DNA of 49,670 bases from Candidatus Methanoflexus mossambicus (GTDB taxonomy: Archaea > Methanobacteriota > Methanobacteria > Methanobacteriales > Methanobacteriaceae), in NCBI GenBank assembly GCA_031261915.1, contig JAISIT010000118.1, positions 1 through 49,670 of the forward strand, read 5' to 3'. The position numbers and the translations under genes are program-made. Positions 3,401 through 22,863 of this stretch are shown piece after piece. The notes beneath the pieces are model-generated. The model did no database searches and was not told where the DNA came from. It saw only the letters and a list, made by a program, of their open reading frames with translations. Positions within the stretch are counted from its first letter, which is position 1, and every line of letters starts with the position of its first letter.

Positions 3401-3862
3401 ATGGAATTTAGTTTAAATGAAGCTATTGATGATTTGAAAAAGGATATGTGGAATAAAGTCATCATAATAAATAAAAAGAGTTCGAAATATCAAAAAGAAT
3501 TTGAAAATCTTAACATTAAAAAAATTAATCTTTCTATAGAAATATCACATCTTGTAAGTGATTTATCTACTCGTGATAAAAAAATGAAAGGTGCAGATAT
3601 TTTAAAAAATTTTTTAGAGGAACAGGATGATGACATAATAGCTTTAGATGATATAAGTTATATATTTTCTCCAGAACTTGGTAAAATAGAGATAAGTAGT
3701 ACATTAAAATATTTTACTCGGGATGGGAAGATTGTAATCGTTTTTATTGATGGAAAGTTATCAGACAATAAATTAACTTATTCTTCTGTTGAAAAATTAA
3801 ATTATATTGAAATGGATGTTTCTCAAAATAAATATGTATTAGGGTGGGAAGATGAAGATTAA
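3401..3862 (+). CDS. brxF: BREX type 3 small P-loop-like protein BrxF
   Basis: A 153-residue protein, the usual BrxF size, and the first gene of the operon, as in type 3 BREX. The N-terminal KVIIINKKSSKY (residues 19-30) sits where the Walker A loop belongs but lacks GxGKT, so nucleotide binding is doubtful. The central block DDDIIALDDISYIFSPELG followed by a strand IVIVFIDGKL corresponds to the Walker-B-like core of BrxF proteins (LD-x-I-x-x-x-F-x-P-x-L). The start ATG 3401 follows GGGGATT. The 3' end overlaps brxC by 11 bp, indicating translational coupling. The exact role of BrxF in phage exclusion is unknown. The identification rests on size, motif and position. Confidence 0.78.
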   Translation: MEFSLNEAIDDLKKDMWNKVIIINKKSSKYQKEFENLNIKKINLSIEISHLVSDLSTRDKKMKGADILKNFLEEQDDDIIALDDISYIFSPELGKIEISSTLKYFTRDGKIVIVFIDGKLSDNKLTYSSVEKLNYIEMDVSQNKYVLGWEDED

Positions 3863-6800
3863 AGATCTTTTTACTTTTGAAGAAATACAACCAGTTATTA
3901 AAATTGGAAGTATTGAAAACGAAGAAAAGATGGTTAAAAATTTTGTTATCTCTTCAAATCTTAAAGATGATTTAATTTACTTTTTAGAATATCTTAATGG
4001 AAATAAAACAGATAAAAACACTTCTATTAATATTATTGGAAATTATGGAACAGGTAAATCTCATTTACTTGCATTTATTTCCTTACTTTTATCAAAAATA
4101 GAACTTAGAGAATATATTCAAGATGAGGAAATAAAAAATAGATTTAAAGAATTAGATAGAGAATTTTTAGTTGTTAAATATGAATTACCTGCAACACAAG
4201 ATAATTCTCTTGCAGATATTTTTTATTATCATGTTCAAGAACAATTATCGCAAAATTATGGTATTGAAATAGATGATTATGGTTCTGAAGGAGATAAAGA
4301 TTCTAAAAAAATTCTTAAAGACCCTAAACAAATCCTTGAAGAGATAATACTCAAAATTAAAGAAAAATATCCTGAAAAAGGATTAATAGTTATTTTTGAT
4401 GAATACTCTGATTTTATAAGACAAAAAAGCACAATAAATGACCAGCAATATGATTTAAATTTCACAAGACAATTGGCAGAAAGTTCATCTAATCAAGATT
4501 TTATTTTAATGCTTTCAATGCAGGAACATATATTTTCATCTCCAGAATATAAAGGGCATGCAGACTTAATTCGTAAAATAGAACAAAGATTCTTAAATAT
4601 TAATATAACCAGTGAAAATATTGAAGAAATTGTTTCAAAAAGAATAGTTAAGAAAAATGAAAATAAAATTCAAGAAATAAGAACTTTATTTGAAGATTTA
4701 AAGCCAAAATTTCAAAATTTATCAGTAGAAGAGGATAAATACATTGATTTATTCCCATTACATCCTTATGTAATAGAAGTTTTCTCAAAAATATCATTTT
4801 TTGAAAATAGATCAATTTTACAATTCATATCTGATGAGATTAGAAAAATATTGGATAAAGATTTTCCAGAATTTATAACCTATGATTTAATATATTCTTC
4901 AATGATTGAAAACCAGTATGGAATTAGCAATAGAGAAGATGTAAAACCAGTTGTAGCTGTTGTTAATTCCTTAAAAGATATTGTAAATAGTCTTGATGAT
5001 AGATATAAAAAGAATGCGAATAGATTAATAGAAAGTTTAGCTATTAAAAACCTTATATCTTCACCAGATAAAGATGGAGATAAAAAAGGAGGAGACAGTC
5101 CAGAGAAATTTGCAGAAAATTTATTTATAATTCCAAAATCTTCTATGATAAGTCCTGTGGATGATATAGATACGACTTTAAATATGTTAATTCAAAAATC
5201 CCTTGGACAATTCATTAATAAAGATGCAAAAAACAACATATACTACATAAATTTAAATGCAACAATAGATTATGAACAGATAATCAACAATAAAGCATCT
5301 AAACTTGGGGATTGGCAATCATTAAATGAAAAATTTGTTGAAGAGTTTTTACTTGATGAATTGGAATTTGAATTGGATAAAAACATTAACTTTTGGGATC
5401 CATCAAAAAAATACATCTTAAATGACACAGTTAAGTGGAAAGAAAGGAATTCATTTAGAGAAGGGAATTTTATTGTAGATATTGGAAATAAAATAGAAAT
5501 CAAAGATAAAGATTTCACAATTGTTTTACATGGCTATGCTCAAACTAATGGATATGACTCAAATTGTATTTTAATTAATCCAAAATACAATGATAATTTT
5601 TCAAAAGCTCTTAAAAGATTAGTAGCAACAATTGAATTAATAAAAACCCACACATACACAGATGTAATGAAAAATAAAAAGAGAACAATAATAGATAATG
5701 AATTAAAACCAGCATTTAATGAAGTTTTCTCAAAATCAACGATTAAATATAAACAAAAAGATTATTCACTTGAAGATTTAGGAATTAACAGTGAAATAAC
5801 CACAGAAATATTTTCACAAATAAAAGAAAAGCTATTATCAGAAGAATTAACGAATAAATATGATAAATATCCAAGATTTAAAGCAAAAATATCATATAAC
5901 AATATTGAAAATACAATAGATAGTGTTTTAAAAGTTATTCCAACAGAAGGAGCAGTAAAAGATTTAACAACACAATACACAAATATTCTAATTCCTCTAG
6001 AATTATATAAAGACAATCTACTGGATGTTACAAGTTCAGAGTATGCAAAAATAATTTTAAATAAATTAAATGATGATAAAAATTTGGATGTTAATGAAAT
6101 AATAGCAGAATTTAAAAAAGAACCTTATGGATTACAAAAAGAAATAGTATACTTAATAATAGCTATTCTACTTAGAAATGGAGATATAATTTTAAGTAAT
6201 AGAAATGGAAAAAGCTATTCATCAACAGAATTCAATCAAATAGACAGCATAAAAAAATTAGAAGACATAAAATACATTAAAAAAGAATCCGACATCCCAG
6301 TATCAAAAATCCAAGAACTCTTCAATGTTTTAGATTTAGATTCAAGTTTAATTTCCCTAAAAAAGAACAGACAAAAAGGATTTACAAGCTATTTAAGTAA
6401 AATAGAAGAAATATTAAATGATATTAATATTATAAATAGTGATTTTAAGAGTATAACATATTATAAACCTATGAGAGATGTTTTTAATGAAATAGATATA
6501 AAATTAAATCAAATAAACAAAGTAAATTTTGAAAAGTTAAAAATAAACAGTTTAATTGGATTTAAAAATTTAGACTATTCTAAAGAGCATTTAGAAGAAA
6601 TAAATGAAAATTATGAAGTAATTACTAATTTAAAATCTCTTTTTAAAGATATTCAAGAATATATTATTAATTCTATAAATTATATGAACGATGCTTTAAA
6701 ATTATTAAATAAATATGATTGTTTCTTTAAGAATACAAAAGAATTAAATCAAATATCTGATGATTTTATGGCTATTACAAGTAATTTAAGAAAATTATTA

Positions 6801-7511
6801 AAAGAAGATGAAAGAAACCCATTAAAAGGAAAAATAGAGCTATTTAAAAAGAAATATAAAGAAATTTATTACAATGCCCATAGAAATGCAGTAGGAGAAG
6901 GAGTAAATTGGAAGCTATTAGAAGAAATAGGACAATCATCAGAATATAATAAATTAAAGGCAATGAAAGGAATTAATTCCTTAAATTCCACAATATTCAA
7001 CAAAATTTTCATAGAAATAAATGATTTAAATGAGTTGCGCAAAGACGATCTAGTTATGGAAGAATTAAATGATTCACCAACAGCCACAAGCTCCAGTTTC
7101 CCAGATAAAAAATTCATAGCTATTGAAAGCCAAATTGAAGCACTATACGATGAAACAATAAACACATACAATCAATGGACAAAGCAAATATTAGAAGATG
7201 TAAGTGATAAAAAAGATAAATTAGAGCTATTAGAAGAAAATGAACAAAAAATAATTGGAGATATAATTAATGCAAAGGAATTACAAGATATAAATGAAAA
7301 TACAATAGCTGCAATAAATAATATATTAAAAGACATAGAAATTAAAGAAATTAATATGGATGAGCTATTTAGAGAAGTAACAAGAAATAAAGACACTCTA
7401 AAATTAGATGAATTCAAATCAAAGATAAACGAATATATAACTGAAAAAACTAAAGGATCAGACGAAGATAAAATAAGAATACTTGTGGTTAATGGTGATT
7501 CAGATGAATAG
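3852..7511 (+). CDS. brxC: BREX ATPase BrxC
   Basis: A 1219-residue protein of the large BREX P-loop ATPase family (BrxC/PglY), close to the usual 1200 residues. Walker A is GNYGTGKSH (residues 63-71) and Walker B is LIVIFDEYSDF (about 177-187). An AAA-like sensor region follows (FILMLSMQEH), and the C-terminal third is rich in predicted coiled coil (LYDETINTYNQW onward). BrxC is essential for phage exclusion in characterised BREX systems and is thought to power the complex that recognises or acts on phage DNA. It overlaps brxF by 11 bp and the KAP gene by 8 bp (ATGAATAG). Codon use is A-rich like its neighbours, and no frame break is seen. Confidence 0.9.
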   Translation: MKIKDLFTFEEIQPVIKIGSIENEEKMVKNFVISSNLKDDLIYFLEYLNGNKTDKNTSINIIGNYGTGKSHLLAFISLLLSKIELREYIQDEEIKNRFKELDREFLVVKYELPATQDNSLADIFYYHVQEQLSQNYGIEIDDYGSEGDKDSKKILKDPKQILEEIILKIKEKYPEKGLIVIFDEYSDFIRQKSTINDQQYDLNFTRQLAESSSNQDFILMLSMQEHIFSSPEYKGHADLIRKIEQRFLNINITSENIEEIVSKRIVKKNENKIQEIRTLFEDLKPKFQNLSVEEDKYIDLFPLHPYVIEVFSKISFFENRSILQFISDEIRKILDKDFPEFITYDLIYSSMIENQYGISNREDVKPVVAVVNSLKDIVNSLDDRYKKNANRLIESLAIKNLISSPDKDGDKKGGDSPEKFAENLFIIPKSSMISPVDDIDTTLNMLIQKSLGQFINKDAKNNIYYINLNATIDYEQIINNKASKLGDWQSLNEKFVEEFLLDELEFELDKNINFWDPSKKYILNDTVKWKERNSFREGNFIVDIGNKIEIKDKDFTIVLHGYAQTNGYDSNCILINPKYNDNFSKALKRLVATIELIKTHTYTDVMKNKKRTIIDNELKPAFNEVFSKSTIKYKQKDYSLEDLGINSEITTEIFSQIKEKLLSEELTNKYDKYPRFKAKISYNNIENTIDSVLKVIPTEGAVKDLTTQYTNILIPLELYKDNLLDVTSSEYAKIILNKLNDDKNLDVNEIIAEFKKEPYGLQKEIVYLIIAILLRNGDIILSNRNGKSYSSTEFNQIDSIKKLEDIKYIKKESDIPVSKIQELFNVLDLDSSLISLKKNRQKGFTSYLSKIEEILNDINIINSDFKSITYYKPMRDVFNEIDIKLNQINKVNFEKLKINSLIGFKNLDYSKEHLEEINENYEVITNLKSLFKDIQEYIINSINYMNDALKLLNKYDCFFKNTKELNQISDDFMAITSNLRKLLKEDERNPLKGKIELFKKKYKEIYYNAHRNAVGEGVNWKLLEEIGQSSEYNKLKAMKGINSLNSTIFNKIFIEINDLNELRKDDLVMEELNDSPTATSSSFPDKKFIAIESQIEALYDETINTYNQWTKQILEDVSDKKDKLELLEENEQKIIGDIINAKELQDINENTIAAINNILKDIEIKEINMDELFREVTRNKDTLKLDEFKSKINEYITEKTKGSDEDKIRILVVNGDSDE

Positions 7512-9465
7512 GCATATAGTTTCAGATGATGAAATAGATTTTTATGCCGAAGAGGATTTTTTTAATTTAACTAAGTATTCTGAAAATTTACTTGATTTGA
7601 TTTATAATAATGATTCACATAAAACAATTGTAATAGGGCTTTTTGGTGAATGGGGCAGAGGAAAATCATCAATTATTAAATCAATAGAAAGTAAAATTAA
7701 AGTCAAAAATGAAGAAGAGAATGAAAAAGTAGTTTTAGTAAAATATGATGCCTGGAAATATGAAAATGATTCATTTAGAAGAATGTTTTTAATGGAAATA
7801 GTAAAAAAATTAGGATTTGACGAAAAATCATTTAACGATAAATTTTATAAAAATACTTCTAAAGATGTGAATATAAAACTTGGAATTAATAATAAATGGA
7901 CAATATTAGCTATTATTGGAGTTATAATTGCTGTTATTTTTTTATTTTTTTTAAATTTAGACATATTCACAATTATAAATGAAAATTTAGGAAGTATTGG
8001 ATTAATTACTTTAATTAGTTTAATTATTTCAATTTTATCGTTTTTACTGGCATTATTTAAAGTTTTTATTGTTAATTTTAAAACAACTACAAGTAATCCA
8101 TATTTTTTTGCTCCAGAACAATTTGAAGAATGTTTTGATAGTTTAATATCTAAAATTTTTGAACCTAATGAATCAAATGGTATTAAAAATAAAATAAAGA
8201 GGTTATCTAAAAGATTTTTTAAAAAAAACAGTAAAAAACCATTATACAAAGAAAATATTAAAAAACTTATTTTTGCAATTGATAATATTGATAGATGCTC
8301 TCCAGATGTTGCTTACAAATTGTTATCAGACATAAAAACTTTTTTAAAAGATAACAATGAACAAATTATTTTTATTATTCCATTAGATGATGAAATTTTA
8401 AGAAAACATTTGTTGAATAGCAATAAATTTAATTTGAATTCAGATAGGGATAATGATGAAAATAATGTTTATGCTGATGAATTCTTTAGAAAATTATTTG
8501 ATATAATTATGAGAATTAAACCAATACAAAACAATGAAATTGGAGATTATGTTTATAAAATAAATAAAGATTTTAATTTTCAAACATCTACTTTATCCAT
8601 TATTTCAGAGGAATATGTTAAAAATCCTAGAAGAATAATTCATGTGTTTAATAATTTATCTACGGAACTTTGTAATTATGAAGAAGAATTTAGGAAAACT
8701 AATGAAGCAGCAATCTGCAAATACATGATATTAAAAGAAGAGTATCCTGAGGAGTATAATATGTTATTCACTGAATTTTATAATGATATAAATGGAGGTT
8801 TTCCAGAGTCAGATAATATTTTTTTTAATAGAACTGCTTTTGTTGAACGAGATATGGATAAAAATGTTTTTAATATAATTTTTGGTAATCTTGAGAATTA
8901 TAAGTCTATTCCTAAAAATATTTATTTTGACATAAAACATGGAAATACTGAGGGTATTGAAATATTTTTAATGACTGATAAAAAAAATCAAGATGAGATT
9001 ATTCATTATTTTGACATAGAACTCAAAGATAAATTGCATAGATTTCCTGAAATTTTTTTTAGAATATTGGATGTTTTAATGGAAATTCATGAAAAAATAG
9101 AAAAAGATAAGTTTAAACCAATTGAAAAACATTTTTTAGATATTCAAAATGATGAACTCATAGATCTTAAGTTTTTCACTGAAAAAACATCAAATATGGA
9201 GAATATTATTCATTTTGCAAAATATATTGATGAATTGTATTTGATAGAGTTTTTACATGGCAGATTATTTAAAAATGGAATAGAACAAGAAAAATATGCA
9301 AAGGATACATTAAAATCAATTATTTTAATTTTTAAAGATGATTGTAATGTTTTAAAGAGTTTTAAACCTATTTTTAGAAAATTTTCTAAATATGAATATA
9401 AAAAATGGGAAGAATTTATCAATAAAACAATTTCTCCAGATAAATTAAAGTGTATTCTGGATTGA
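7504..9465 (+). CDS. KAP-family P-loop NTPase with two membrane helices
   Basis: A 653-residue protein with the KAP NTPase design: Walker A GLFGEWGRGKSS (residues 45-56), the YDAWKYEND motif typical of KAP (about 81-89), two hydrophobic helices inserted in the NTPase domain (about 133-152 and 165-190), and Walker B LIFAIDNIDRC (254-264). KAP NTPases are membrane-bound on the cytoplasmic side and occur in many defence islands. ATG 7504 is chosen because GGTGAT lies at 7495-7500; it overlaps the brxC stop by 8 bp and ends 10 bp before the methyltransferase. This tight spacing makes it part of the BREX operon. It is not a standard gene of type 3 BREX. Its role, perhaps membrane anchoring or sensing, is inferred. 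Confidence 0.88.
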   Translation: MNRHIVSDDEIDFYAEEDFFNLTKYSENLLDLIYNNDSHKTIVIGLFGEWGRGKSSIIKSIESKIKVKNEEENEKVVLVKYDAWKYENDSFRRMFLMEIVKKLGFDEKSFNDKFYKNTSKDVNIKLGINNKWTILAIIGVIIAVIFLFFLNLDIFTIINENLGSIGLITLISLIISILSFLLALFKVFIVNFKTTTSNPYFFAPEQFEECFDSLISKIFEPNESNGIKNKIKRLSKRFFKKNSKKPLYKENIKKLIFAIDNIDRCSPDVAYKLLSDIKTFLKDNNEQIIFIIPLDDEILRKHLLNSNKFNLNSDRDNDENNVYADEFFRKLFDIIMRIKPIQNNEIGDYVYKINKDFNFQTSTLSIISEEYVKNPRRIIHVFNNLSTELCNYEEEFRKTNEAAICKYMILKEEYPEEYNMLFTEFYNDINGGFPESDNIFFNRTAFVERDMDKNVFNIIFGNLENYKSIPKNIYFDIKHGNTEGIEIFLMTDKKNQDEIIHYFDIELKDKLHRFPEIFFRILDVLMEIHEKIEKDKFKPIEKHFLDIQNDELIDLKFFTEKTSNMENIIHFAKYIDELYLIEFLHGRLFKNGIEQEKYAKDTLKSIILIFKDDCNVLKSFKPIFRKFSKYEYKKWEEFINKTISPDKLKCILD

Positions 9466-9475
9466 AGGTGACATA

Positions 9476-11983
9476 ATGACAAATAATGATTTTCAAAAGA
9501 AATTAGTAGCTGAAAAAGACGATTTTAAAGAATCTTTAAATTTAACTGAAGAAAAGATTAGAAAAGACCTTAAAAAGATGAAAAACATTGAAGGTTTCCC
9601 ATTAGGAGACATAGAAGATATTTTAGAATTTTCAAGAAGTCCTTACTATTTAACATGTCCTAATCCATTCATTCAAGAGTTTATTGAATACTATGGAGAT
9701 AGTTATGATGAAAAATGTGACGAATATAAGATTAAACCTTTTGCAGGTGATGTAAGTGAAGGTAAAAATGATCCTGTGTATATGGTGCATTCATACCATA
9801 CAAAAGTTCCACATAAAGCCATAATCAAATATATTCTGCATTACACTAAAGAAAAGGATATTATCTTTGATGGATTTAGTGGTACTGGTATGACTGGTGT
9901 TGCAGCACAATTAACTAATAGAATTCCAATATTGTCTGAAATTGGAGTAGCTCCTGCATTAATTTCAAAAAATTACAATGATTCTTTTGATTATAATGTT
10001 TTAGTGGAAATAGATAATATTATTAATGATTTAAGTACAGAATGTTCTTGGATGTATAAAACAAATCATATTAATAGTGATGGACAAAAAAAAGGAATTA
10101 TTAATTATTTAGTTTGGAGTGATGTCTTAATTTGTCCTTCTTGTGGAAAAGAAATAGTTTTTTGGGATGTTGCAGTTAATAGGAAAGAATATTCAGTTAA
10201 AAAAGAATTCAAATGTAGTACATGCAATATAAATTTAAAAAAAACAGACTGTGAACGGGCAACAGAGGAAATATTTGATTTTGGATTAGGGAATAAAATT
10301 ATTCAACCTAAAGAAGTTCCAGTTTTAGTGAATTATACGTATAATCGAAAAAGGTATGAAAAGATACCTGATGAAAATGATTTAAACTTAATTGAAAGAA
10401 TTCAAAACATGGAAATTCCTTATTGGTTTCCAACAAATGAGTTGCCTAAAGGTTATAATACAAAACAACCTATTAAATCTCATAATTTTACTAATGTTCA
10501 TCATTTTTATGAAAAAAGATCATTATATATCTTGAGTTCTTTATATGATAAAATAATTAAAAGTAAAAATAAAGACAAAAATATTATATATCTCACTTCA
10601 ATATCACAAAAATCATCTAAAATGAACCGATGGACAAAAAAACATGCCGGTCCATTAGCAGGAACATTATATATTCCATCTTTAAGGTTTGAAACCTCAA
10701 TTTTCAATTTATTAAAAAATAAGTATAAAATTTTCAAAATTCTCATTGAAAATTCAAACAATTATAAAAATAAATTTATAGTTACTAATCAATCGTCTAC
10801 GGATCTTTCTAATGTTCCTAAGAATTGTGTTGATTATATATTTACTGATCCTCCATTTGGTTCTAATTTAATGTATTCTGAATTGAATTTTATTTGGGAA
10901 TCTTGGCTTAAAGTGTTTACTAATAATAAAGAGGAAGCTATTGTCAATAATCAACAGAATAAAGACAATCATGATTACTATGAACTTATGACTTCTGCTT
11001 TTTCAGAGATGTTTAGAATTTTAAAACCTAATCGTTGGATTACTGTTGAATTTCATAATTCAAAAGCAGAAATATGGAAATTAATTCAAGAATCTATTGT
11101 TAAAGCAGGATTTATGATAGCTCAAGTCGCTGTTTTGGATAAAAAACAAGGTAGTTTTAAGCAGGTTACATCTCCAGGGTCAGTTAAGAATGATTTAATT
11201 ATTAATGCCTATAAACCTGTTGAATCTTTTACAGAAAGATTTAAACAAAAATCTGGAAGAGATATTGAGAAAGAATTTGTTAAAATGCATTTAAATAATC
11301 TTTTAATTGAATCTACTATTGAAAGAACTCATCAAATGTTGTATTCTCGAATCATAGCACATTATATTCAAAATGGATTTGAAATTCAAATGGATGCTTC
11401 AGATTTTTATGAGTTTTTAAATACAAATTTTGAAGAAAGAAATGGATTTTGGTTTAATGAAGATCAAATTGAAGAATATGAAAAAAATCTAAAACTTAAT
11501 GAAAATATTAATGATTTTGATTTAAATCAAAGAATTTTAGGAATTACTGATGAAAAATCAGCTATTATTTGGTTATCTCAGTTTTTAAAAGAACCTAAAA
11601 CTTATAATGATATTAGTATTGAATTTAATAAGCAATCTCTTAAGTCTGATGATAAAATTCCAGAATTAAAAACAATTTTGGAGGATAATTTTACAACTGA
11701 AGATGGAAAATATAGATTACCTTCTTCTATGGAGAGACAAGAGAAAGAAGAAGTCAGAAGTAAACGATTATTAAAAGAATTCAAAGAAATAATCGAAACT
11801 GCAAAATCTTCAAAGAAAAAGATTAAAGAAATTAGAAAAGAAGCTCTTACATTTGGTTTGATGAAATTATATAAAGAAAAAGATATTGATACTATTAAAC
11901 TGCTTGGAGAAAGAGTTGATAGAAAAATCATTGATAGTGATGATGATATTTCAGCTATTGTTGATTGGGCTATGTATAAATAA
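9476..11983 (+). CDS. pglX: BREX DNA methyltransferase with Zn ribbon (type 3 PglX)
   Basis: An 835-residue class I methyltransferase of the amino-methylating kind. The SAM motif is FDGFSGTGMTG (residues 131-141) and the catalytic motif is FTDPPFG (about 456-462). Between them lies a Zn ribbon with CPSCG (about 220) and CSTC (about 247). The C-terminal 250 residues are helical and charged, a likely target-recognition or partner-binding region. In BREX, PglX methylates an adenine in an asymmetric host site, marking self DNA. Type 3 systems use this variant (PglXI) rather than the type 1 form. GGTGAC at 9468-9473 precedes the ATG. The site specificity cannot be read from the sequence. Confidence 0.87.
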   Translation: MTNNDFQKKLVAEKDDFKESLNLTEEKIRKDLKKMKNIEGFPLGDIEDILEFSRSPYYLTCPNPFIQEFIEYYGDSYDEKCDEYKIKPFAGDVSEGKNDPVYMVHSYHTKVPHKAIIKYILHYTKEKDIIFDGFSGTGMTGVAAQLTNRIPILSEIGVAPALISKNYNDSFDYNVLVEIDNIINDLSTECSWMYKTNHINSDGQKKGIINYLVWSDVLICPSCGKEIVFWDVAVNRKEYSVKKEFKCSTCNINLKKTDCERATEEIFDFGLGNKIIQPKEVPVLVNYTYNRKRYEKIPDENDLNLIERIQNMEIPYWFPTNELPKGYNTKQPIKSHNFTNVHHFYEKRSLYILSSLYDKIIKSKNKDKNIIYLTSISQKSSKMNRWTKKHAGPLAGTLYIPSLRFETSIFNLLKNKYKIFKILIENSNNYKNKFIVTNQSSTDLSNVPKNCVDYIFTDPPFGSNLMYSELNFIWESWLKVFTNNKEEAIVNNQQNKDNHDYYELMTSAFSEMFRILKPNRWITVEFHNSKAEIWKLIQESIVKAGFMIAQVAVLDKKQGSFKQVTSPGSVKNDLIINAYKPVESFTERFKQKSGRDIEKEFVKMHLNNLLIESTIERTHQMLYSRIIAHYIQNGFEIQMDASDFYEFLNTNFEERNGFWFNEDQIEEYEKNLKLNENINDFDLNQRILGITDEKSAIIWLSQFLKEPKTYNDISIEFNKQSLKSDDKIPELKTILEDNFTTEDGKYRLPSSMERQEKEEVRSKRLLKEFKEIIETAKSSKKKIKEIRKEALTFGLMKLYKEKDIDTIKLLGERVDRKIIDSDDDISAIVDWAMYK

Positions 11984-12022: not shown

Positions 12023-13357
12023 ATGGCTAAAGCAAAATATGGTAAATGGAAGCCAACAGGAGATACTATTGGTGAAGGAGGTCAAGGTCAGATTTTATTG
12101 GTTGAAAGTGAAGATTTTCAAGATAAAAAATTTGCTTTGAAATTTTTAATAAATATTAATCGAATTGATAGGATTGAAAAAGAAATCAATGCTTGTTTAG
12201 AACTTAATCACAAAAATATTGTAAATGTAGTTGATTATGATTTAAATAACACTCGTCCATATTTAGTAATGAATTATTATGGGAATGGAAGTTTAGATAA
12301 GTTTGATTTTGATAATTATGATTTAATGGTAAAGTTGGAACTTTTTAAAGAGATATGTGAAGGAATAGCTTATGCACATTTAAATGAACCTCCAATTATT
12401 CATAGGGATATTAAACCTGAAAATATTTTCTTAGATGATGAATTACATCCAATTATTGGTGATTTTGGCTTATGTTTTTATGATGATGATGGAGACAGGT
12501 TTACTTTAACTGAAGAAGCAGTAGGTTCAAGAAATTATATGTCTCCTGAACTTGAAGATGGGATAATAGACAATGTCATCAACTTAGCGATTATTTAAAA
12601 TAATATTTATTTTTTTGATTAAAAATTACAATTAATATTTGTTTTAAATTTATAAAAACTATTAATTTAATATATGTTCTTGTTTAATTATTAATTTTAA
12701 TATCAAACAATATAATGCTACTTATTTTAAAAATAAGTAGAATTAAAGAGTAAATTATATTGATAGTATTGTTTCAATGAATAAAAATAAAAATAATGTG
12801 ATTTTAGGCAATTAAAATTGGTTTAGAATTTATAAAAATTTTATAAAATATAAAAATAATTCCTATAATTCTCTTAAGTTGATGACAGTGGGATAATAGA
12901 TAAAATTAGTCCTGCATCTGATGTTTATTCTTTAGGTAAGCTTTTATATTGGTTAATTACAGGAAAAATATTCTCAAGAGAAAAACATCTTGAAGATAAA
13001 TATAATATTATTAATAAAATCCCTGAAAGAGAAGCTAATTTAATCAATGAATTATTAAATAAAATGATAGTTGCAGATGTTGATGAAAGATTTAAGGATG
13101 CGAAAGAAGTTTTAGATGAGGTAAATATAATGATAAATAGGATAAAAAGAGGAAACAATGCCATTGGTAAAAATTTAACTCAATATTGTATTTATTGTGG
13201 TAAAGGAAAATATTCCAAAAAAATAATTCCACAAAATTATGGATTTAATAAAAATAATCGTTTTGACAAACTTTTAGTTTGTGATTATTGTGGAAACATT
13301 CAAATTTTTGTTTGTGATGTCTGGAATGAGACTGTAAGTAAAAATGAAACTATCTAA
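12023..13357 (+). pseudogene. Ser/Thr protein kinase gene split by a MITE
   Basis: The first part (12023-12570) encodes a eukaryotic-like kinase: glycine loop IGEGGQGQ, ATP lysine in FALKFL (about 41), catalytic HRDIKPEN (130-137), DFG (147-149) and the SPE segment of the activation loop. A 320-bp insertion follows, after which the gene resumes in the same frame at 12901 (DKISPASDVYSLGKLLYWL) through the C-lobe to a Zn ribbon with CIYCG and CDYCG. Joining 12570 to 12901 gives one frame of 334 residues. As it stands, the product would stop at 12598 after 191 residues, without the C-lobe, and would probably be inactive. The gene lies 39 bp after pglX. Kinases also occur in type 2 BREX (PglW), but this one is much smaller. 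Confidence 0.88.
12571..12890. mobile_element. 320-bp MITE with 16-bp inverted ends and 10-bp target duplication
   Basis: The left end reads CAATGTCATCAACTTA and the right end, reverse-complemented, reads CACTGTCATCAACTTA, one mismatch in 16. The direct repeat ggataataga flanks it exactly (12561-12570 and 12891-12900). The interior is AT-rich with no long frame; an internal palindrome around cttattttaaaaataag (about 12721-12737) can form a hairpin. Its small size, inverted ends and lack of a transposase make it a non-autonomous element moved by a transposase encoded elsewhere. The intact target duplication suggests a recent insertion. Confidence 0.92.
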
Positions 13358-13468
13358 ATAGTAATTTTCAAAAATGAATTTAATTTTTTGTTAATATCAT
13401 AAATATAATATATCTTTTAGACTAACATTTATATCCAAATTATTTAAATAATTAAAATTGTGATGATT

Positions 13469-16279
13469 ATGAGTAATTTGAAGAATAAATTTAAATCTTT
13501 TACTGATTTCTTTTCAAGATATTTTGTTTCAGAAAATTATAAAATAGTGGGACATATAATTATTTGGATTATTATTCTGATTATTACATTACTTGTTGTT
13601 TATAATTTTGATTTTATTGAATTATTTGATTTGGAATTCTTTAAATATGTATTTAATGAAAGTATTTTTAAAGATTATTTAATAATGATTATATCTGCTT
13701 CAATTGCAATGTTATCAATAGTATTTTCATTATCTCAGTTTATTTTACAATCTATTGCTTCAAATATTTCTGAAAGAGTAAAAAGTGAATTTCAAAATAA
13801 TCATTTAGTTATACTGTTTTATTTAATTGAAATATTGTTAATTTTGGTTTGTTTTGTTGGTTTATGTTTAAAAATTATCAATTTTAATTTCTTAGATGAA
13901 TGTATTTGGATTATAACTGCCATATTATTTATTTTATCTATAATCTATTTGATTAAATATAGTCGATTGATGTTTTGTTATTTTGATCAGAAAGAGTATA
14001 TAAAATTATCTTTTGATAACGTAAATTCTATAGAAAGTTTTGAAAATGAAAATAACATTATAAAACTTGAAAATTTGGTTGTTATTGGTGATATTTCTAT
14101 AAAATCAATTAAGTCAAATGAAGATTTTATTTATAAATCAATTATGGGTGAATTTAAAAATTCGGTTAATAGTTTATTTGAAAAAAATGAATTAAGTTCT
14201 GAAAAAATTATTTTGACAGGAATATTAATTGAATTATATAGGATTTTTAAAAAAACTGTAGAACTAAAAGATTTAGAGTCTTCAAAAGAAATATTATATG
14301 TTTTTAAAGTAATTTCGTCTAAAATTATATATTCAAAAAAATATGAGTTTTTACCAATTGTTTATGGTAATGGGTCACTTAAAGCTTTTTTTGGAAATGA
14401 AGAAAACATATTTAAGTCTAATATGTATTTTATTGAATTTAATTTCAATGCATTTTTTAACTCATCCATTAATGAGTCAATAGATTTAATGAAATTCTTT
14501 TCTCAGTTAATTTTATCTTTTTGTGATGTATGGATTATTGTTGCTGAAAATTTTGAGAATAAAAACTTTACTAACGATAAAACAAAGGATGTTACTTTTA
14601 AATTAGTTGATTTGGATTGGCATAGAATTTTTAGTAATGTGATTTTTCAGTCACTAAGAATTGTCATTGATATTGATAATTTTGAAGTTTTTAAAATGAT
14701 ATGTGATGATTTTAAAAGAAAAAATCTTTTTAGTCCAGTATTAATGCGAAATGATATATTATCACTATCATTTAATGAAATTATTTCTAATTATGGGGAT
14801 AAATTATTTGAAGAGTATACAAAGGATATTGTTAATCAAAAAAGTGATTCAATAGATATTATGGGAAAGATTAACAATGTGGAGTCATGGTTTGATACTG
14901 TTATGAATGATAGTTTTAAAAATTTCACTGATTTAATGAATATTTATAATAATCCATTTGGTTTATCATTTGAAGATATAAGTGAGTTATTAAATGACTA
15001 TTTAGTAAATGCTTTAGTTTATAAACAGTTTTTCGCATTAGGCGCATATAGTATTTATTTTTTCGATTATAATTATGAAAATGAAAAATCAAATAAATAT
15101 ATTAAAGAAATTTGGTACTCTTTGGATTATGGTAAAACTTCAGTTAATGTTATTCCATCACATTTAAATGATTTTGATGAATTATGGTTATTTAATCTTT
15201 ATTTATTCGCTGGAAATGGAAAAGGATGGGGTGATGATTATATTTTAAGTAACTTTTTTGATTTCCACAGCTATTTAGATTTATATTTCATTTTATCTTT
15301 TGTAAATTCAACTCCGTATGAAAATTATGGTGCTTCATACCATTATGTTGTTCTTGATGGAATAATAAATAGCAAAGATTCTTTATTTAAAACATTGGAT
15401 CAATTTGAAAAGGATTTTGATAATTATTCCGAATTAATCAATGATAAACTTTCTGAAAAACTTAAAAATTATGAATTAAAGAGGATTAATGAGATTAATC
15501 TTATTTCTAAAACGAAACAATTAATTGATTCAAGATTTAATGAATTAAAAGTGCATTATTTAAAAATACTAAATGACTTAAGTTTAGATTCAAAACGAGA
15601 AGAAGAACTGAAAACTGAAATATTAAATAGTTATTGTAAATATAGTGATATTTTTGGTTTAAATTCATTCAAAATTAATTTTAGAAACTCCACCAGTCCT
15701 GAATATTTTTCTGTGAAGACAACATTGTTTTTTGATAAAAATTTTTTAGTTAAAGATTCTTCACTTCCTATAGTTTTTGCTATGCAGAATAAAGATGATT
15801 ATATTAAAGAATTTGCTATTCATGAACAAAATAAAATATTGGAAAAAATTCAAAATTTCGACATAATTCCGAATAAAGAATTAGGAGAGATTAAAGAGGA
15901 TAAATTAAATAATTTAATTAAAGAATCAATAAAATCTATGAGAAATAATAAATTAAATCCTAATTTAATAATTTTGCCTAAAAATCTTTCATTTAATAAG
16001 TTTATTCGTGAAAAAGATCATGATATAAAAGTTATTTATTCTGATAAAATAAAAGAAGATTCTATTTATATTCTTGATGGGAAAAAAATAATCTTAAATT
16101 ATATAGATCTTAATGAAAATGAATATAATAAAAAAATTCACATGATATTCAATGAGAAAAATGAGTTCTTAGGTGATAATCCACATCCATTTATAAAATT
16201 AGATATTATTTCAATTATTGATTTAGAAGTAGAAGATGAAAAAAGTATTTTTTTAATAAAATTTGGAGAGATTGAATGA
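13469..16279 (+). CDS. Large protein with four N-terminal membrane helices, function unknown
   Basis: A 936-residue protein that I cannot assign to a family. Four hydrophobic helices are visible at about residues 27-46, 69-94, 112-137 and 143-164; the remaining 770 residues are hydrophilic and aromatic/acidic-rich, predicted to be cytoplasmic. The N-terminal topology recalls DUF2254-like membrane proteins, but no motif proves this. ATG 13469 is preferred over upstream GTG 13460 because GTGATGATT then serves as the ribosome binding site. The end overlaps the helicase start by ATGA, so the two are translationally coupled. It is not a standard BREX gene. With the KAP NTPase it gives this island a membrane component. 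Confidence 0.7.
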   Translation: MSNLKNKFKSFTDFFSRYFVSENYKIVGHIIIWIIILIITLLVVYNFDFIELFDLEFFKYVFNESIFKDYLIMIISASIAMLSIVFSLSQFILQSIASNISERVKSEFQNNHLVILFYLIEILLILVCFVGLCLKIINFNFLDECIWIITAILFILSIIYLIKYSRLMFCYFDQKEYIKLSFDNVNSIESFENENNIIKLENLVVIGDISIKSIKSNEDFIYKSIMGEFKNSVNSLFEKNELSSEKIILTGILIELYRIFKKTVELKDLESSKEILYVFKVISSKIIYSKKYEFLPIVYGNGSLKAFFGNEENIFKSNMYFIEFNFNAFFNSSINESIDLMKFFSQLILSFCDVWIIVAENFENKNFTNDKTKDVTFKLVDLDWHRIFSNVIFQSLRIVIDIDNFEVFKMICDDFKRKNLFSPVLMRNDILSLSFNEIISNYGDKLFEEYTKDIVNQKSDSIDIMGKINNVESWFDTVMNDSFKNFTDLMNIYNNPFGLSFEDISELLNDYLVNALVYKQFFALGAYSIYFFDYNYENEKSNKYIKEIWYSLDYGKTSVNVIPSHLNDFDELWLFNLYLFAGNGKGWGDDYILSNFFDFHSYLDLYFILSFVNSTPYENYGASYHYVVLDGIINSKDSLFKTLDQFEKDFDNYSELINDKLSEKLKNYELKRINEINLISKTKQLIDSRFNELKVHYLKILNDLSLDSKREEELKTEILNSYCKYSDIFGLNSFKINFRNSTSPEYFSVKTTLFFDKNFLVKDSSLPIVFAMQNKDDYIKEFAIHEQNKILEKIQNFDIIPNKELGEIKEDKLNNLIKESIKSMRNNKLNPNLIILPKNLSFNKFIREKDHDIKVIYSDKIKEDSIYILDGKKIILNYIDLNENEYNKKIHMIFNEKNEFLGDNPHPFIKLDIISIIDLEVEDEKSIFLIKFGEIE

Positions 16280-19152
16280 AAATAGGAAGTCAAATTAGAA
16301 GTAAGGATTACCCAGAATACGGTATGGGGACTATAATTGAAATTGATAGTATTGGTGGGGAGAATTATTGTAAGGTTTTCTTTGATGATTTGAAGGAAAT
16401 TAAGCATCTTAAGGAGGATTCTTTGTCTTTGGTTGCTTCTGTTATTGAGAAGAGTGAGACTCGGGATTATGATGATCCTCTTTTGTTTTCTCTTTGTTTG
16501 TTGTGTGAGAAAATTGAAGCTCTTAATTATCAGAGTAAACTTATTTCTGCTAATAATTTTAATATTTTGCCTCTTCCTCATCAGATTTTGACTGTTAATC
16601 ATGTTTTGGAGAGTTTTTCTCCTCGTTATTTGATTGCTGATGAGGTTGGTTTGGGGAAGACTATTGAGGCGGCTTTGATTTTTGAGGAGTTGAAGTTGCG
16701 TAAGAAGGTTAATCGGGTTTTAATTTTATCTCCTTCTGCTTTAACTATGCAATGGAGGGATGAACTTAAGACTAAATTCAATGAGGATTTTTTAGTTGTT
16801 GATCGTGAGGTTTTCTCTGGTTTGGAGTCTATTCATGGTGATACGAATGTTTGGGAGAATTATAATCAGGTGATTTGCTCTATTGATTTTGCTAAACCTA
16901 AATCTATTAAAGATTCTTTATCTGAAAAAGTTAAAGCTTCTCGAAATCTGGATAATAAGCGAATAACTCAAAATCTTATTGATGCTAAGTGGGATATGGT
17001 TATTGTTGATGAGGCACATCATTTAAGTAAGGATTGGGATAAGTCTGAAACTGCACGGTATAAACTTGGTAAAGCTTTAGCTGAGTCAACTGAAAATTTA
17101 CTTTTCTTATCTGCAACTCCTCATCAGGGTAAGAGTGAGAAGTTTCTAAATCTCTTGGAGTTAATTGATCCTTATAAATTCTTTGATGCTGGTTCTTTAA
17201 CTCCTGATAATGTTAAATCTGTTACTGTTAAGAATGAAAAGCGTGCTGTTACTGATTTAGATGGTAATCTTATTTTTAAAGATAGAATTGTCCAGCTTGT
17301 TAAGATCCGTCGTGATAAATCAGATATTGAATCTATTCTTTATGAAAATGTTACTGATTATGTTTCTAAGTTTTATAATCTTGCATTAAGGGATAATAAT
17401 AGGACTTTAGCATTTTTACTTATTATTTATCAGAGAATGGTTTCATCATCTTCTAAAGCTATTCATGAGTCATTAACTAAACGGCTTAATATAATTAACA
17501 ATGATTTAAATAATATTTATAATTTAAAAAAAATAGATTATGATGAAATTGAGGATATTAATCTTCAGGAAGCTTATGATAAGATTATATCTCAAGAAAT
17601 CAAAGAGGATATTTCTTCTGGTGTTGATTTTTCATTAATTGAGAAGGATGTTGTTAAAGAAATGAATATCCTTGAAGATTGTGTTAAAATAGCTAAAAAA
17701 GCTTCTACTGGAAGACAAGATGCTAAAATAGTTAAGTTACTTGAAATTATTGATGAGGTTATTGCAAGAGAAGGAATAGACACTAAATTTATTATTTTCA
17801 CAGAATTTATCAAGACTCAAGAGTATATTGGTGAGATTTTAGAAAATTATGGTTATAAAGTCAGTTATTTCAATGGAAAAATGTCTTTAGATGAGAAGAT
17901 AGGATCTAAATCTAAATTTAAAGATGATCATCAATTTTTAATATCTACTGATTCTGGTGGTGAGGGTATTAACCTTCAATTTGCACATGTTATGATTAAT
18001 TATGATCTTCCTTGGAATCCTATGAAAATTGAACAAAGAATTGGTCGTATTGATAGAATAGGACAAGAAAAGGATGTTTTAGTTTTTAATTTTGTTATTG
18101 AAGATACTATTGAAGAGAGAGTTAGAGACATTTTAGATCGTAAGTTAGATATAATTTCTAATCAATTTGGGGATGATAAAAAGAGGGATGTTTTGAGTTT
18201 ATTAAATGAGGATTTTAATTTTGATAAATTATTTATTGAAGCTGTTAGAAAAAAGGAAGTTAAAACTAAGGAACTTCAAGAAATTGGAAATAAAATGAAC
18301 TCTCAAGCTAAAAACATTATTGAAAATCAACAGTTATTAATACCATTTTCTCAAAAAAAAGAAGAAAATCCAAAAAAATATATTTTAGATGATACTAAGC
18401 TATTAATTGAAAATTTAGTTAGAGCTTACCTTAGATATAAACATATTGATTTAATAGAATACTCTAATAAGAAAAATGTTTATTATTTGGAAAAACCAAT
18501 TAAAAATTATAGATGTAAAAACCTTGTTTTTGATAAAAAAATATCTTTAGAAAATGAAAAATATGAATATCTTAATTTATCTCATCCATTAATTAAAATG
18601 ATATTAAATGAAATAACATCTTTTAATTCACTTTCTTTTGATTTGAAGATAAATAATTACACTGATAATATCAATGGAACTTTATTTTTATATAGTTTAA
18701 AACTTACAAATAATGAAGATTTTATTAGAAAACATTTAATACCTGTTTTTATCAATAGTGCTGGGGATTATGATGAAAAGGTTAGTAATTGGTTTGTAGA
18801 TGATGATAATTTCAATATTAAGATGGATTTTGAAGATGATATTGGAGAAGCTTTAAAAGATATTAAAATTAAAGCTGAAAAGATAAAAGATCAAAAAATT
18901 AAGGATTATATGATAAATACGAGAATGGAGCTTTATGAAAAATTAGAAAAAGAAAAAGAAAAATATGATGTTTATTTTAAAAAGGAGGAAAAGGAAATTA
19001 ATAAACGAGGAATTGAAAATATAAGAGAAAGTATTTTAGAACAATTAAATTCACATAAAAATCAATTAGAATTAGATAGAAAGAAAAGAAAAGAGTTAGT
19101 TCCTCAAGTAGAGCTTTTTGCAATTGCTGAGATTACTTTAAATGATGAATAG
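16276..19152 (+). CDS. brxHII: SNF2-family helicase BrxHII
   Basis: A 958-residue SNF2/RapA-like ATPase. A small N-terminal beta domain (residues 1-50, SH3/Tudor-like) precedes Walker A ADEVGLGKTIEA (121-132), IVDEAHHL (about 242-249), FLSATPHQG, and the C-terminal helicase domain with DSGGEGINLQ and QRIGRIDRIGQ (about 587). The C-terminal 250 residues are helical. Type 3 BREX carries such a helicase (BrxHII), and a related SNF2 protein, DrmD, occurs in DISARM. The presence of brxF, brxC, pglZ and brxA decides for BREX. It overlaps the upstream membrane gene by 4 bp. The first 1.1 kb uses clearly more G-ending and C-containing codons than the rest. Confidence 0.87.
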   Translation: MKIGSQIRSKDYPEYGMGTIIEIDSIGGENYCKVFFDDLKEIKHLKEDSLSLVASVIEKSETRDYDDPLLFSLCLLCEKIEALNYQSKLISANNFNILPLPHQILTVNHVLESFSPRYLIADEVGLGKTIEAALIFEELKLRKKVNRVLILSPSALTMQWRDELKTKFNEDFLVVDREVFSGLESIHGDTNVWENYNQVICSIDFAKPKSIKDSLSEKVKASRNLDNKRITQNLIDAKWDMVIVDEAHHLSKDWDKSETARYKLGKALAESTENLLFLSATPHQGKSEKFLNLLELIDPYKFFDAGSLTPDNVKSVTVKNEKRAVTDLDGNLIFKDRIVQLVKIRRDKSDIESILYENVTDYVSKFYNLALRDNNRTLAFLLIIYQRMVSSSSKAIHESLTKRLNIINNDLNNIYNLKKIDYDEIEDINLQEAYDKIISQEIKEDISSGVDFSLIEKDVVKEMNILEDCVKIAKKASTGRQDAKIVKLLEIIDEVIAREGIDTKFIIFTEFIKTQEYIGEILENYGYKVSYFNGKMSLDEKIGSKSKFKDDHQFLISTDSGGEGINLQFAHVMINYDLPWNPMKIEQRIGRIDRIGQEKDVLVFNFVIEDTIEERVRDILDRKLDIISNQFGDDKKRDVLSLLNEDFNFDKLFIEAVRKKEVKTKELQEIGNKMNSQAKNIIENQQLLIPFSQKKEENPKKYILDDTKLLIENLVRAYLRYKHIDLIEYSNKKNVYYLEKPIKNYRCKNLVFDKKISLENEKYEYLNLSHPLIKMILNEITSFNSLSFDLKINNYTDNINGTLFLYSLKLTNNEDFIRKHLIPVFINSAGDYDEKVSNWFVDDDNFNIKMDFEDDIGEALKDIKIKAEKIKDQKIKDYMINTRMELYEKLEKEKEKYDVYFKKEEKEINKRGIENIRESILEQLNSHKNQLELDRKKRKELVPQVELFAIAEITLNDE

Positions 19153-19419: not shown

Positions 19420-20451
19420 ATGGAAAATAATAAGGTGATAACACGAACTTTGTTTTATAATGGTGTTGAAGGTGCAATTACTGGAGATTTCATTATTGAT
19501 AATAAAAATGAAACTTTATGGGCTACTCAAAAAACAATTTCAAAACTATTCAATGTGGATAGAACAGTTATTACAAGGCATTTAAAAAATATTTATTCTG
19601 AAGAAGAATTAGATGAAATTTCAACTAGTGCAAAAATTGCACATGTTCAAAATGAAAGTGGTAGAGATGTAAAACGTACTTTAAAATTCTATAATTTAGA
19701 TGCTATAATTTCAGTAGGGTATCGTGTGAATTCTAAAGAAGCTACACGATTTAGAAAATGGTCAACAGATATTTTAAAGCAATATATGGTTAGAGGCTAT
19801 GTTTTAGATAAAGAATTGTTAAAAAATGATGGTAGATTTGGTGTAGATTATTTTGAAAACCTATTAGAAGATATTAGAGAAATTAGATCTTCAGAAAGGA
19901 AGTTCAATCAAAAAATTACTGACATATATGCAACAAGCTATGATTATAATAAAGATGCAAAATTAACTAAAGAGTTTTTTGCAACAGTTCAAAATAAATT
20001 AATATATGGAGTAACAGGATTTACAGCCGCAGAAATAATAGCAAATAGGAGCGATAGTGAAAAATCATTCATGGGTTTAACTTCATGGAGAAATCCTAAT
20101 GGAAAAATAGTAATGAGTGATGTTGTTATATCTAAAAACTATTTAACTAAGAAGGAATTAGAAAATTTAAATAGAATAGTAGAAGCTTTTCTTAATGTTG
20201 CAGAATATAGGGCTTTAAATGAAATGGTAACAACTATGAATGATTGGAAAGAATTTTTAGATAATTTTATTAATTTAAATCAATTAAATCTTTTACAAAA
20301 TAAAGGCAGTATTGATGCTAATTCAGCAAAAGAAATAGCTATTAATGAATATAAGAAATTTAAAAAAATTCAAGACAAAAACTTCCAATCAGATTTTGAT
20401 AAAATGATAGAAGAATTAAAAAGAATTGAAGGCAAAACAGAAAATAAATAA
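19420..20451 (+). CDS. rhuM: RhuM-family protein
   Basis: A 343-residue protein with the RhuM (virulence/phage-related) signature: LWATQKTISKLFNVDRTVIT at the helix-turn-helix region (about residues 29-48), HLKNIYSEEELDE, then KRTLKFYNLDAIISVGYRVN and ATRFRKWSTDILKQY, which is the phage antirepressor-like core. The C-terminal third is helical (YNKDAKLTKEFFATVQNKL). RhuM homologues often sit among type I restriction genes and other defence loci; the biochemical function is not settled. GGTG at 19412 precedes ATG 19420. It is the first gene of a cassette bounded by duplicated brxHII ends. Confidence 0.9.
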   Translation: MENNKVITRTLFYNGVEGAITGDFIIDNKNETLWATQKTISKLFNVDRTVITRHLKNIYSEEELDEISTSAKIAHVQNESGRDVKRTLKFYNLDAIISVGYRVNSKEATRFRKWSTDILKQYMVRGYVLDKELLKNDGRFGVDYFENLLEDIREIRSSERKFNQKITDIYATSYDYNKDAKLTKEFFATVQNKLIYGVTGFTAAEIIANRSDSEKSFMGLTSWRNPNGKIVMSDVVISKNYLTKKELENLNRIVEAFLNVAEYRALNEMVTTMNDWKEFLDNFINLNQLNLLQNKGSIDANSAKEIAINEYKKFKKIQDKNFQSDFDKMIEELKRIEGKTENK

Positions 20452-20468
20452 TATTTATGTTGGATATA

Positions 20469-20543
20469 ATGAGATTTAAACCATATACCAAATACAAAGA
20501 TTCTAAAAATGATTTTGTGGAAAATAGATTTAAAATCAGTTAA
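20469..20543 (+). pseudogene. Start fragment of a type I restriction specificity subunit (HsdS)
   Basis: A 24-codon frame opens with MRFKPYTKYKDS, the very characteristic start of many HsdS subunits (M-x-F/Y-K-P-Y-x-K-Y-K-D-S). After KND the similarity ends, and the frame runs into a stop at 20541 inside the next gene. The HsdS body has been deleted and the remaining start joined to the nuclease gene. The call rests on this short motif only. Confidence 0.6.
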
Positions 20544-21480
20544 TGTTGAACTTATTAATTTATATTGGGAAATTGGAATGGCTATTAATTCTAAAGCGTC
20601 TTGGGGAAAATCTATTGTAGTTAAATTATCTAAAGAATTGCAAAATGAATTTCCAGGCATTAAAGGATTTTCTGTAAGTAATATATGGAATATGGTTAAA
20701 TTTTATAAAACATATAATGGAGATGAAAAACTCCAACCACTGGTTGGAGAAATTAGTTGGACTAAACATGTTCTTATTATGGAAAAGTGTAAGGATTCTC
20801 AAATGAGAGAATTTTATATTTTAGCTACTAAGAAATTTGGATGGTCTAAAAATGTTTTAATTCATCAAATTGAAACTAATGCTTATGAAAGGTTTTTAAT
20901 TAATCAAACTAATTATGATGAAACTATTTCTAATGAAATTAAAAATCGTGCATCAATAGCTGTTAAAGATGAGTATATTTTTGATTTTTTAGATTTAAGT
21001 GAAAATTATTCAGAAAAAGAAATGGAATTTGAATTGGTTAAAAATATTAGAAAGTTTTTACTTGAAATGGGGAGCCAATTTACATTTATTGGAAATCAAT
21101 ATAAATTAGAGTTAGGGGATAAAGAGTATTTCATTGATTTATTATTATTTCACAGACAATTAAAATGTTTAGTAGCTATTGAACTTAAAATTGGAGAATT
21201 TATTCCAGAATATAAAGGCAAAATGGAATTCTATTTAGAAATTTTAAACGATAAAGTTAAATTACCTGATGAAAATGATTCTATTGGAATAATAATATGC
21301 AAAGAAAAGAACAGAACTGTAGTTGAATATTCACTTAGAAGTTCTAAATTGCCAATATGTGTTGCAAGTTATGAAACTTCATCTAAATTACCAAAAGATT
21401 ATGAAAACTTATTGCCAAGTAACGAAGAAATAGCAGGTAAAATGGATTATTTTTTCAAATCAAAAGATAAAAACTTATAA
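20509..21480 (+). CDS. YhcG/DUF1016-type PD-(D/E)xK nuclease, N-terminus shortened
   Basis: A 323-residue protein of the YhcG (DUF1016) family: an N-terminal DNA-binding half with VELINLYWEIG, GIKGFSVSNIWNMVKFY and SWTKHVLIMEKC, and a C-terminal nuclease domain with YFIDLLLFHRQLKCLVAIEL followed by KIGEFIPEYKGKM, supplying the D and ExK residues. Family members are linked with type I restriction loci and defence islands. Here the protein starts only about 12 residues before the VELINLYWEIG block, where relatives have a longer helix. The gene begins inside an HsdS start fragment, and ATG 20509 has no good ribosome binding site. The 5' end has probably been lost by a fusion deletion, so activity is uncertain. 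Confidence 0.82.
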   Translation: MILWKIDLKSVNVELINLYWEIGMAINSKASWGKSIVVKLSKELQNEFPGIKGFSVSNIWNMVKFYKTYNGDEKLQPLVGEISWTKHVLIMEKCKDSQMREFYILATKKFGWSKNVLIHQIETNAYERFLINQTNYDETISNEIKNRASIAVKDEYIFDFLDLSENYSEKEMEFELVKNIRKFLLEMGSQFTFIGNQYKLELGDKEYFIDLLLFHRQLKCLVAIELKIGEFIPEYKGKMEFYLEILNDKVKLPDENDSIGIIICKEKNRTVVEYSLRSSKLPICVASYETSSKLPKDYENLLPSNEEIAGKMDYFFKSKDKNL

Positions 21481-22066: not shown

Positions 22067-22390
22067 ATGAGTAATAAAAATAATAGGAAACAGATAGCTA
22101 TTGATTTTGCTAAGTCTTTAAATAATCCAGAAATTGAAAAAATCATTTTATTTGGTTCTGTTGCTCGTGGTGAGGATAATATTAATTCGGATATTGATAT
22201 TTTGATACTTACAACCAATGATGATGATCAACTTAAAATTAGGGATAGTATTTATACTAAAGTTATGGATATTCTTATTAAAACAGGAGAAAGAGTTTCT
22301 CTTAAATTTAGATCTTTAAATGATTATATTAAATATAAAGATTTTTCATTTTTTTCTAATGTAACTAAAGATGGAATTATATTAAAGTAG
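22067..22390 (+). CDS. MNT-type nucleotidyltransferase (MntA-like antitoxin)
   Basis: A 107-residue minimal nucleotidyltransferase. The polymerase-beta-type motif GSVARGEDNINSDIDI (residues 30-45) gives the GS and the DxD metal ligands. In HEPN-MNT pairs of known function the MNT protein AMPylates and silences the HEPN toxin. GAGG at 22055-22058 precedes the ATG. The HEPN gene follows 98 bp later. A paralogous pair lies in opposite orientation at 27260-27944; the two MNT proteins share KQIAIDFA, IEKIILFGSVARG and SDIDIL. Its position between brxHII and pglZ suggests the pair is a resident of the BREX operon. Confidence 0.88.
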   Translation: MSNKNNRKQIAIDFAKSLNNPEIEKIILFGSVARGEDNINSDIDILILTTNDDDQLKIRDSIYTKVMDILIKTGERVSLKFRSLNDYIKYKDFSFFSNVTKDGIILK

Positions 22391-22488
22391 TTAGTTAACT
22401 TTTGATTTTTTAATAAATTAATTTCAGGAAAAGTTTGTAATTATCAATATAATGATAAATAAATATAGATTTAGTAGATGTGGTAGAT

Positions 22489-22863
22489 ATGAATCTTGAT
22501 GAAGTTAAAACATGGATGAATAGTGCATTTGAAGCCCTTGAAGATTCTAAAATAGCTTTGGATAATGAAAGATATAAAATGTCTCTTAATCGTTCGTATT
22601 ATGCTACTTTTTATGCTGCAACTGCATTATTGGTTAAAAAAGGAATTTATGTAAAAACACATTCTGGAACTATACAAAGATTTGGATTTGAATATGTTGT
22701 TAATGGTAATTTCGATGGAGAAATAGCTAAGATTTTCTCTGATTTAGAAGATGATCGTGAAAATGCAGATTATGAATCTAATTATTTTATTAGTGAAGAT
22801 CATGCCATTGATAACTATGATAAAGCTGAAATTTTTGTTTTTGAATGTGAAAATTATATCTAA
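22489..22863 (+). CDS. HEPN-domain protein, partner of the MNT gene
   Basis: A 124-residue helical protein of the HEPN class: SAFEALEDSKIALDNERY at the first helices, NRSYYATFYAATALL at the signature and KTHSGTIQRFGFEYVVNG in the second half. The usual RNase signature has a histidine six or so residues after the arginine (R-x4-6-H); here the place is tyrosine (RSYYATFY), so RNA cleavage by the standard mechanism is doubtful. ATG 22489 is preferred over GTG 22480 because GGTAGAT immediately precedes it. Its TAA overlaps the pglZ ATG (TAATG), which implies translational coupling to pglZ. Confidence 0.85.
   Translation: MNLDEVKTWMNSAFEALEDSKIALDNERYKMSLNRSYYATFYAATALLVKKGIYVKTHSGTIQRFGFEYVVNGNFDGEIAKIFSDLEDDRENADYESNYFISEDHAIDNYDKAEIFVFECENYI

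Follow-up and report, generated by a model that had tools for sequence, protein, structure and literature searches.

Probable recent insertion of an IS4-type MITE into an accessory kinase gene of an archaeal BREX cluster

The window considered here is a stretch of 49,670 nucleotides from Candidatus Methanoflexus mossambicus (contig JAISIT010000118.1), and it carries a BREX gene cluster read from the forward strand. In order, the cluster comprises brxF and brxC (DUF6079; 3401-7511), an extra gene for a KAP-family P-loop NTPase (7483-9465), the methyltransferase gene pglXI (9476-11983; PDLC02541, E 3.5e-272), a kinase gene in two parts, an intact gene for a 939-aa protein of unassigned family immediately downstream of the kinase (13460-16279), a SNF2/RapA-like BREX helicase gene (16276-19152), and pglZ with brxA, both intact (22863-25306). 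According to the profile matches, the six gene kinds of the BREX type III core are present and all are open. The best PADLOC model for the helicase is BrxHI, yet the protein is SNF2/RapA-like, which is how BrxHII of the type III core set has been described (PMC12839542). The window therefore resembles BREX type III in having BrxF, BrxC, PglXI, a BrxHII-type helicase, PglZ, and BrxA, and differs from it in the addition of the KAP NTPase, the broken kinase, the 939-aa protein, RhuM, a DUF1016 nuclease, and an MNT/HEPN pair. The kinase gene is the only one found interrupted; it is an accessory gene of a type-III-like BREX cluster that is otherwise free of interruptions.

Some of the neighboring genes deserve a brief mention. 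The 939-aa protein has hydrophobic stretches near its N terminus that probably span the membrane; it gave no Pfam or PADLOC match, and no relative of it was found in 151 genomes of the order, except for one weakly matching stretch (31%) in its own genome. The genes for RhuM, the DUF1016/YhcG nuclease, and the MNT/HEPN pair lie between the helicase and pglZ (19420-21480 and 22067-22863) and look like extra defense cargo. Downstream of the BREX cluster, two adjoining DNA cytosine-5 methyltransferase genes (TIGR00675; 32869-34978) are perhaps part of another restriction-modification locus.

The 5' part of the kinase gene (12023-12570, + strand) encodes the N-lobe, the HRDIKPEN catalytic loop, and the DFG and SPE motifs, and matches Pkinase (PF00069) with an E value of 5e-28 over profile positions 5-168 of 263. 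The 3' part (12901-13357, + strand) encodes the C-lobe, with the motif DVYSLGK, and a C-terminal zinc-ribbon-like domain of the form CxxC...CxxC. With the intervening DNA in place, the open reading frame of the 5' fragment runs to a stop within that DNA (12023-12598, + strand), and the kinase frame ends after 191 aa; downstream of it, 152 codons are open, and the CxxC residues and DVYSLGK are retained. When 12023-12570 and 12901-13357 were joined in a script, they gave 335 codons whose sole stop is the last, that is, 334 residues, with NYMSPELEDGII meeting DKISPASDVYSLG at the junction. A sequence-only reading of this DNA, made before our analysis, had proposed that a single kinase gene is split here, and the rejoined 334-codon frame bears this out, as do the distant homologues at three other loci (L086, L035, and L047), which read straight through the junction and have the same C-lobe and two C-terminal CxxC pairs. 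Because the kinase architecture, from the catalytic loop through the C-lobe to the CxxC pairs, is conserved, and uninterrupted, in these homologues, both fragments belong to one gene.

The kinase itself is not readily matched with a named one. Its best PADLOC profile is mad6, and it is like MAD6 and PglW in having a Ser/Thr kinase domain; it differs from them in its length (334 codons against 600-1,400), in its zinc-ribbon-like C-terminal tail, and in scores that lie far under the cutoffs, namely 72 bits against 460 for MAD6 (NF047741, where it was the N-terminal part that scored) and 43 bits against 990 for PglW (NF033442), whose multidomain architecture it also lacks. Kinase searches returned only distant homologues, of about 30-38% identity, and in a comparison with the window proteins the homologues fetched had no BREX genes alongside. 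No empty site or orthologous kinase was found in the genus, the family (139 genomes), the genome_contigs collection, viral contigs, phages, or plasmids, nor was an orthologous kinase with the adjoining 939-aa protein found in the order (151 genomes). In an unrelated bacterium (L086, 8471-10897), a RhuM gene stands directly upstream of the homologous zinc-ribbon kinase gene, echoing the RhuM of the window.

The DNA that separates the two parts is an element of 320 bp and 14.7% GC (12571-12890), which its ends, its genomic repeat family, its composition, and a six-frame check identify as a non-autonomous, IS4-type MITE. Its 16-bp inverted ends, CAATGTCATCAACTTA and TAAGTTGATGACAGTG, are complementary at 15/16 positions; the left terminal inverted repeat (TIR) occupies 12571-12586 on the + strand, and the right one, which reads CACTGTCATCAACTTA inward from the - strand, occupies 12875-12890 with one mismatch to the left. 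Abutting both TIRs is a perfect target site duplication, GGATAATAGA, of which the left copy (12561-12570) and the right copy (12891-12900) agree in 10/10 bases. It is important to note that the direct repeat around the element appears to be 12 bp long, TGGGATAATAGA, only because the last two bases of the right inverted end are TG and GGATAATAGA was preceded by TG in the target as well; other, independent copies show that the duplication is really 10 bp long and lies exactly at the TIR boundary. A scan for exact 10-bp repeats directly bordering 16-bp inverted ends, one mismatch being allowed in the latter, gave a single case in the window, the element at 12571-12890; 60 first-order Markov controls gave 0 on average. 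Coordinates and scan alike thus agree with the 320-bp element, 16-bp ends with one mismatch, and perfect 10-bp duplication that had been read from the letters. The same reading had attached weight to the fact that element and one duplication together make 330 bp, a number divisible by 3. We do not, because removing an element with one copy of its duplication restores any target. The position of the junction, between activation loop and C-lobe, was likewise rejected as meaningful, as an exact duplication restores the target wherever it is placed. The longest stop-free stretch of the element in six frames is 31 codons, and an Rfam scan of the window gave no match.

That this element is a MITE, as had been proposed, is confirmed by the recurrence of its ends and duplication in independent copies and by the existence of a transposase-coding relative. 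With inverted ends, a short non-coding body, dispersed copies, and a target duplication, it belongs to a dispersed repeat family as one of its non-autonomous members. In its own genome there are 11 matching stretches on 11 contigs (E<=1e-20, the window element included), and the internal sequence is conserved among copies. The other copies are 72-90% identical to the window element, and the best of them over the whole length reaches 86%. A near-identical source copy was not found in this assembly and, with the best assembled copy only 86% identical, the donor is either gone, left out of the assembly, or resident in a different host. In the best-preserved other copies of the same genome (C231 and C164), the duplications are no longer recognizable.

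The family extends beyond this genome. The 17-base inverted end, with at most one mismatch, is present in 27/139 genomes of the host family, with reversed-pattern controls near zero, and a search of viral contigs for the TIR pattern gave a match in one contig. Copies of 129-152 bp in three other genomes (G106, G128, and G131) are bordered, exactly at their ends, by perfect 10-bp duplications, and five independent copies from these genomes show five different duplications (ATATTATCAC, GTTTCAAATT, TGCTAATGAC, GTTTAAATAG, and TGTTTTACAC); several further copies have degenerate ones. G128 and G131, which belong to another genus, have 24-25 matches each to the same inverted end. Many of their copies are MITEs of 129-153 bp, several with perfect duplications, and this MITE population is recently active. 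A related 129-bp MITE in G131 (contig C151, locus L161, 478-606), with the perfect duplication TGTTTTACAC, lies just before CRISPR-array-like sequence; at the corresponding position, G128 (L204) has other inserted DNA. For two young copies of the other genomes, sisters were searched for an empty site without a clean one being found: one sister contig ended within the element and the other had different inserted DNA.

Relatives with their own transposase allow the family to be assigned. An element of 1,884 bp in G060 has ends CAATGTCGTCAACTTA, one base off the MITE end (15/16), and a 10-bp duplication, CTAATAATTC, at the same offset as in the MITE copies. It encodes a 437-aa IS4-family transposase (NF033592, 153 bits versus a cutoff of 115) with a DDE_Tnp_1 match and an intact Y(2)R(3)E(6)K motif, seen as Y-NL-R-WGI-E-TNYNTM-K. 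A second element, of 2,012 bp, was found in a sister species (G001), with the closely related ends CACTGCTGTCAACTTAAGAA and the duplication GGAAATAATT; the ends of the autonomous relatives show CAATG and CACTG. The IS4 family is described as having the YREK motif, duplications of ~10 bp, and, in most subgroups, 5'-CA ends (De Palmenaer et al. 2008, PMC2266710), and a DDE transposase with YREK, direct repeats of ~10 bp, and 5'-CA ends are what the autonomous relative has. The MITE end CAATGTCATCAACTTA, with its 5'-CAATG, also fits the ends given for the IS4 subgroup, -AATR--------WTW, and the 10-bp duplication agrees; however, the autonomous relatives, at 1,884 and 2,012 bp, exceed the size listed for that subgroup (1,400-1,650 bp; PMC2266710), and for this reason we record a likeness and do not file them there. 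Unlike the transposase-bearing IS4 elements, the window copy has no coding content.

The host's own assembly (94%-complete, 316 contigs), to which the sequence-only reading had looked for further TIRs and a full-length parent, supplied the family copies and no transposase with exactly matching ends. The only intact transposase relative in it, on C83, has 36% identity and differing ends (CAATTCTGTCAACTTT/CAATGCTGTCAACTTT). Fragmented assemblies often lose insertion sequences.

With the element family, its ends, its duplication, and the split of one conserved gene established, the best explanation is that a recent insertion of an IS4-type MITE inactivated an accessory kinase of the BREX cluster, to which we assign a probability of about 0.92. 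An IS4-family transposase, presumably acting in trans, would have pasted the non-autonomous MITE into the accessory Ser/Thr kinase gene, and a staggered cut would have given rise to the 10-bp target duplication. The insertion cuts the protein short after 191 residues, at a stop within the element and past SPE; as this takes away the entire C-lobe together with the zinc-ribbon-like tail, the kinase is almost certainly inactive.

How long ago this happened requires more caution. That the inactivation is recent, as had been suggested, is favored but not proven: we take the insertion to be young relative to the other copies because its duplication is perfect where those in the same genome have decayed, and because the 152-codon downstream frame is intact. 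Should the insertion instead be ancient, the gene would be long dead and fixed, and its downstream half open merely by chance. The element indeed differs by at least 14% from each of the other near-complete copies and, since a random substitution in the 3' part creates a stop in about 6.3% of cases, the open frame excludes only heavy decay; the probability of no stop is still 0.28 with 20 neutral substitutions and drops to 0.04 at 50. An old dead gene must nevertheless account for a duplication identical in 10/10 bases, when the best-preserved other copies of the genome have lost theirs, and for a 3' part that has kept its CxxC residues and DVYSLGK as well as its reading frame. We regard it as unlikely, though it fares best among the alternatives.

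Slightly less probable again is that the element serves as a regulatory or expression module, which would terminate transcription in the kinase gene or drive the downstream genes from TTTATAAA motifs. A T7 tract lies close to 12610, and TTTATAAA is matched at three places within the element, but the element is 85% AT, and across the window the motif is not enriched (17 seen versus 23 expected).

The least probable reading, and one that we consider very improbable, is the on/off switch that had been offered as an alternative to inactivation, in which the element would regularly leave by exact excision, through a transposase or through slippage between the duplications, and insert again, toggling the kinase in the population. 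None of our results speaks positively for it. Given its exact duplication, its inverted ends, and its two intact halves, the locus could revert exactly, yet exact restoration says nothing for a switch because every insertion with a target duplication has that property, and one-way insertion predicts the identical sequence. The interrupted allele is, moreover, the only kinase copy in the assembly, in which, fragmented as it is, no matching transposase was found, and re-insertion at one 10-bp site requires strong site specificity, whereas the duplications observed all differ. The published literature deems an occasional exact loss of archaeal elements possible; in Sulfolobus plasmids, however, elements were lost mostly imprecisely and exact excision was rarely detected (PMC4390865). 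In one of these plasmids, pTC1, a MITE lies within ORF108, and a natural element-free variant keeps a single repeat (PMC4390865). The likeness to the present case is that of an archaeal MITE inserted in a reading frame; the difference is that pTC1 has a natural empty site and imperfect repeats, and here the repeats are perfect and only the filled allele is assembled. The MITE may rarely revert by slippage without being a regulated switch. That it reverts at a useful rate, so that a minority with intact kinase would let the population hedge one BREX-linked arm of defense, seems just as improbable.

The recent MITE insertion that we prefer looks like an ordinary gene disruption by a known kind of element. 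Its value lies in being a clean natural knockout, in which one insertion removes an accessory kinase and all recognized BREX core genes stay open; this suggests that the host can do without the kinase, or that the kinase carries a cost there. The case also documents, in a probably methanogenic archaeal group, an IS4-type MITE family that has been active recently enough to leave perfect duplications; composition and gene content suggest that the host is probably a low-GC methanogen of the Methanobacteriaceae type. If the site proves to be polymorphic, clusters that have the kinase and clusters that lack it could be compared directly in natural strains.
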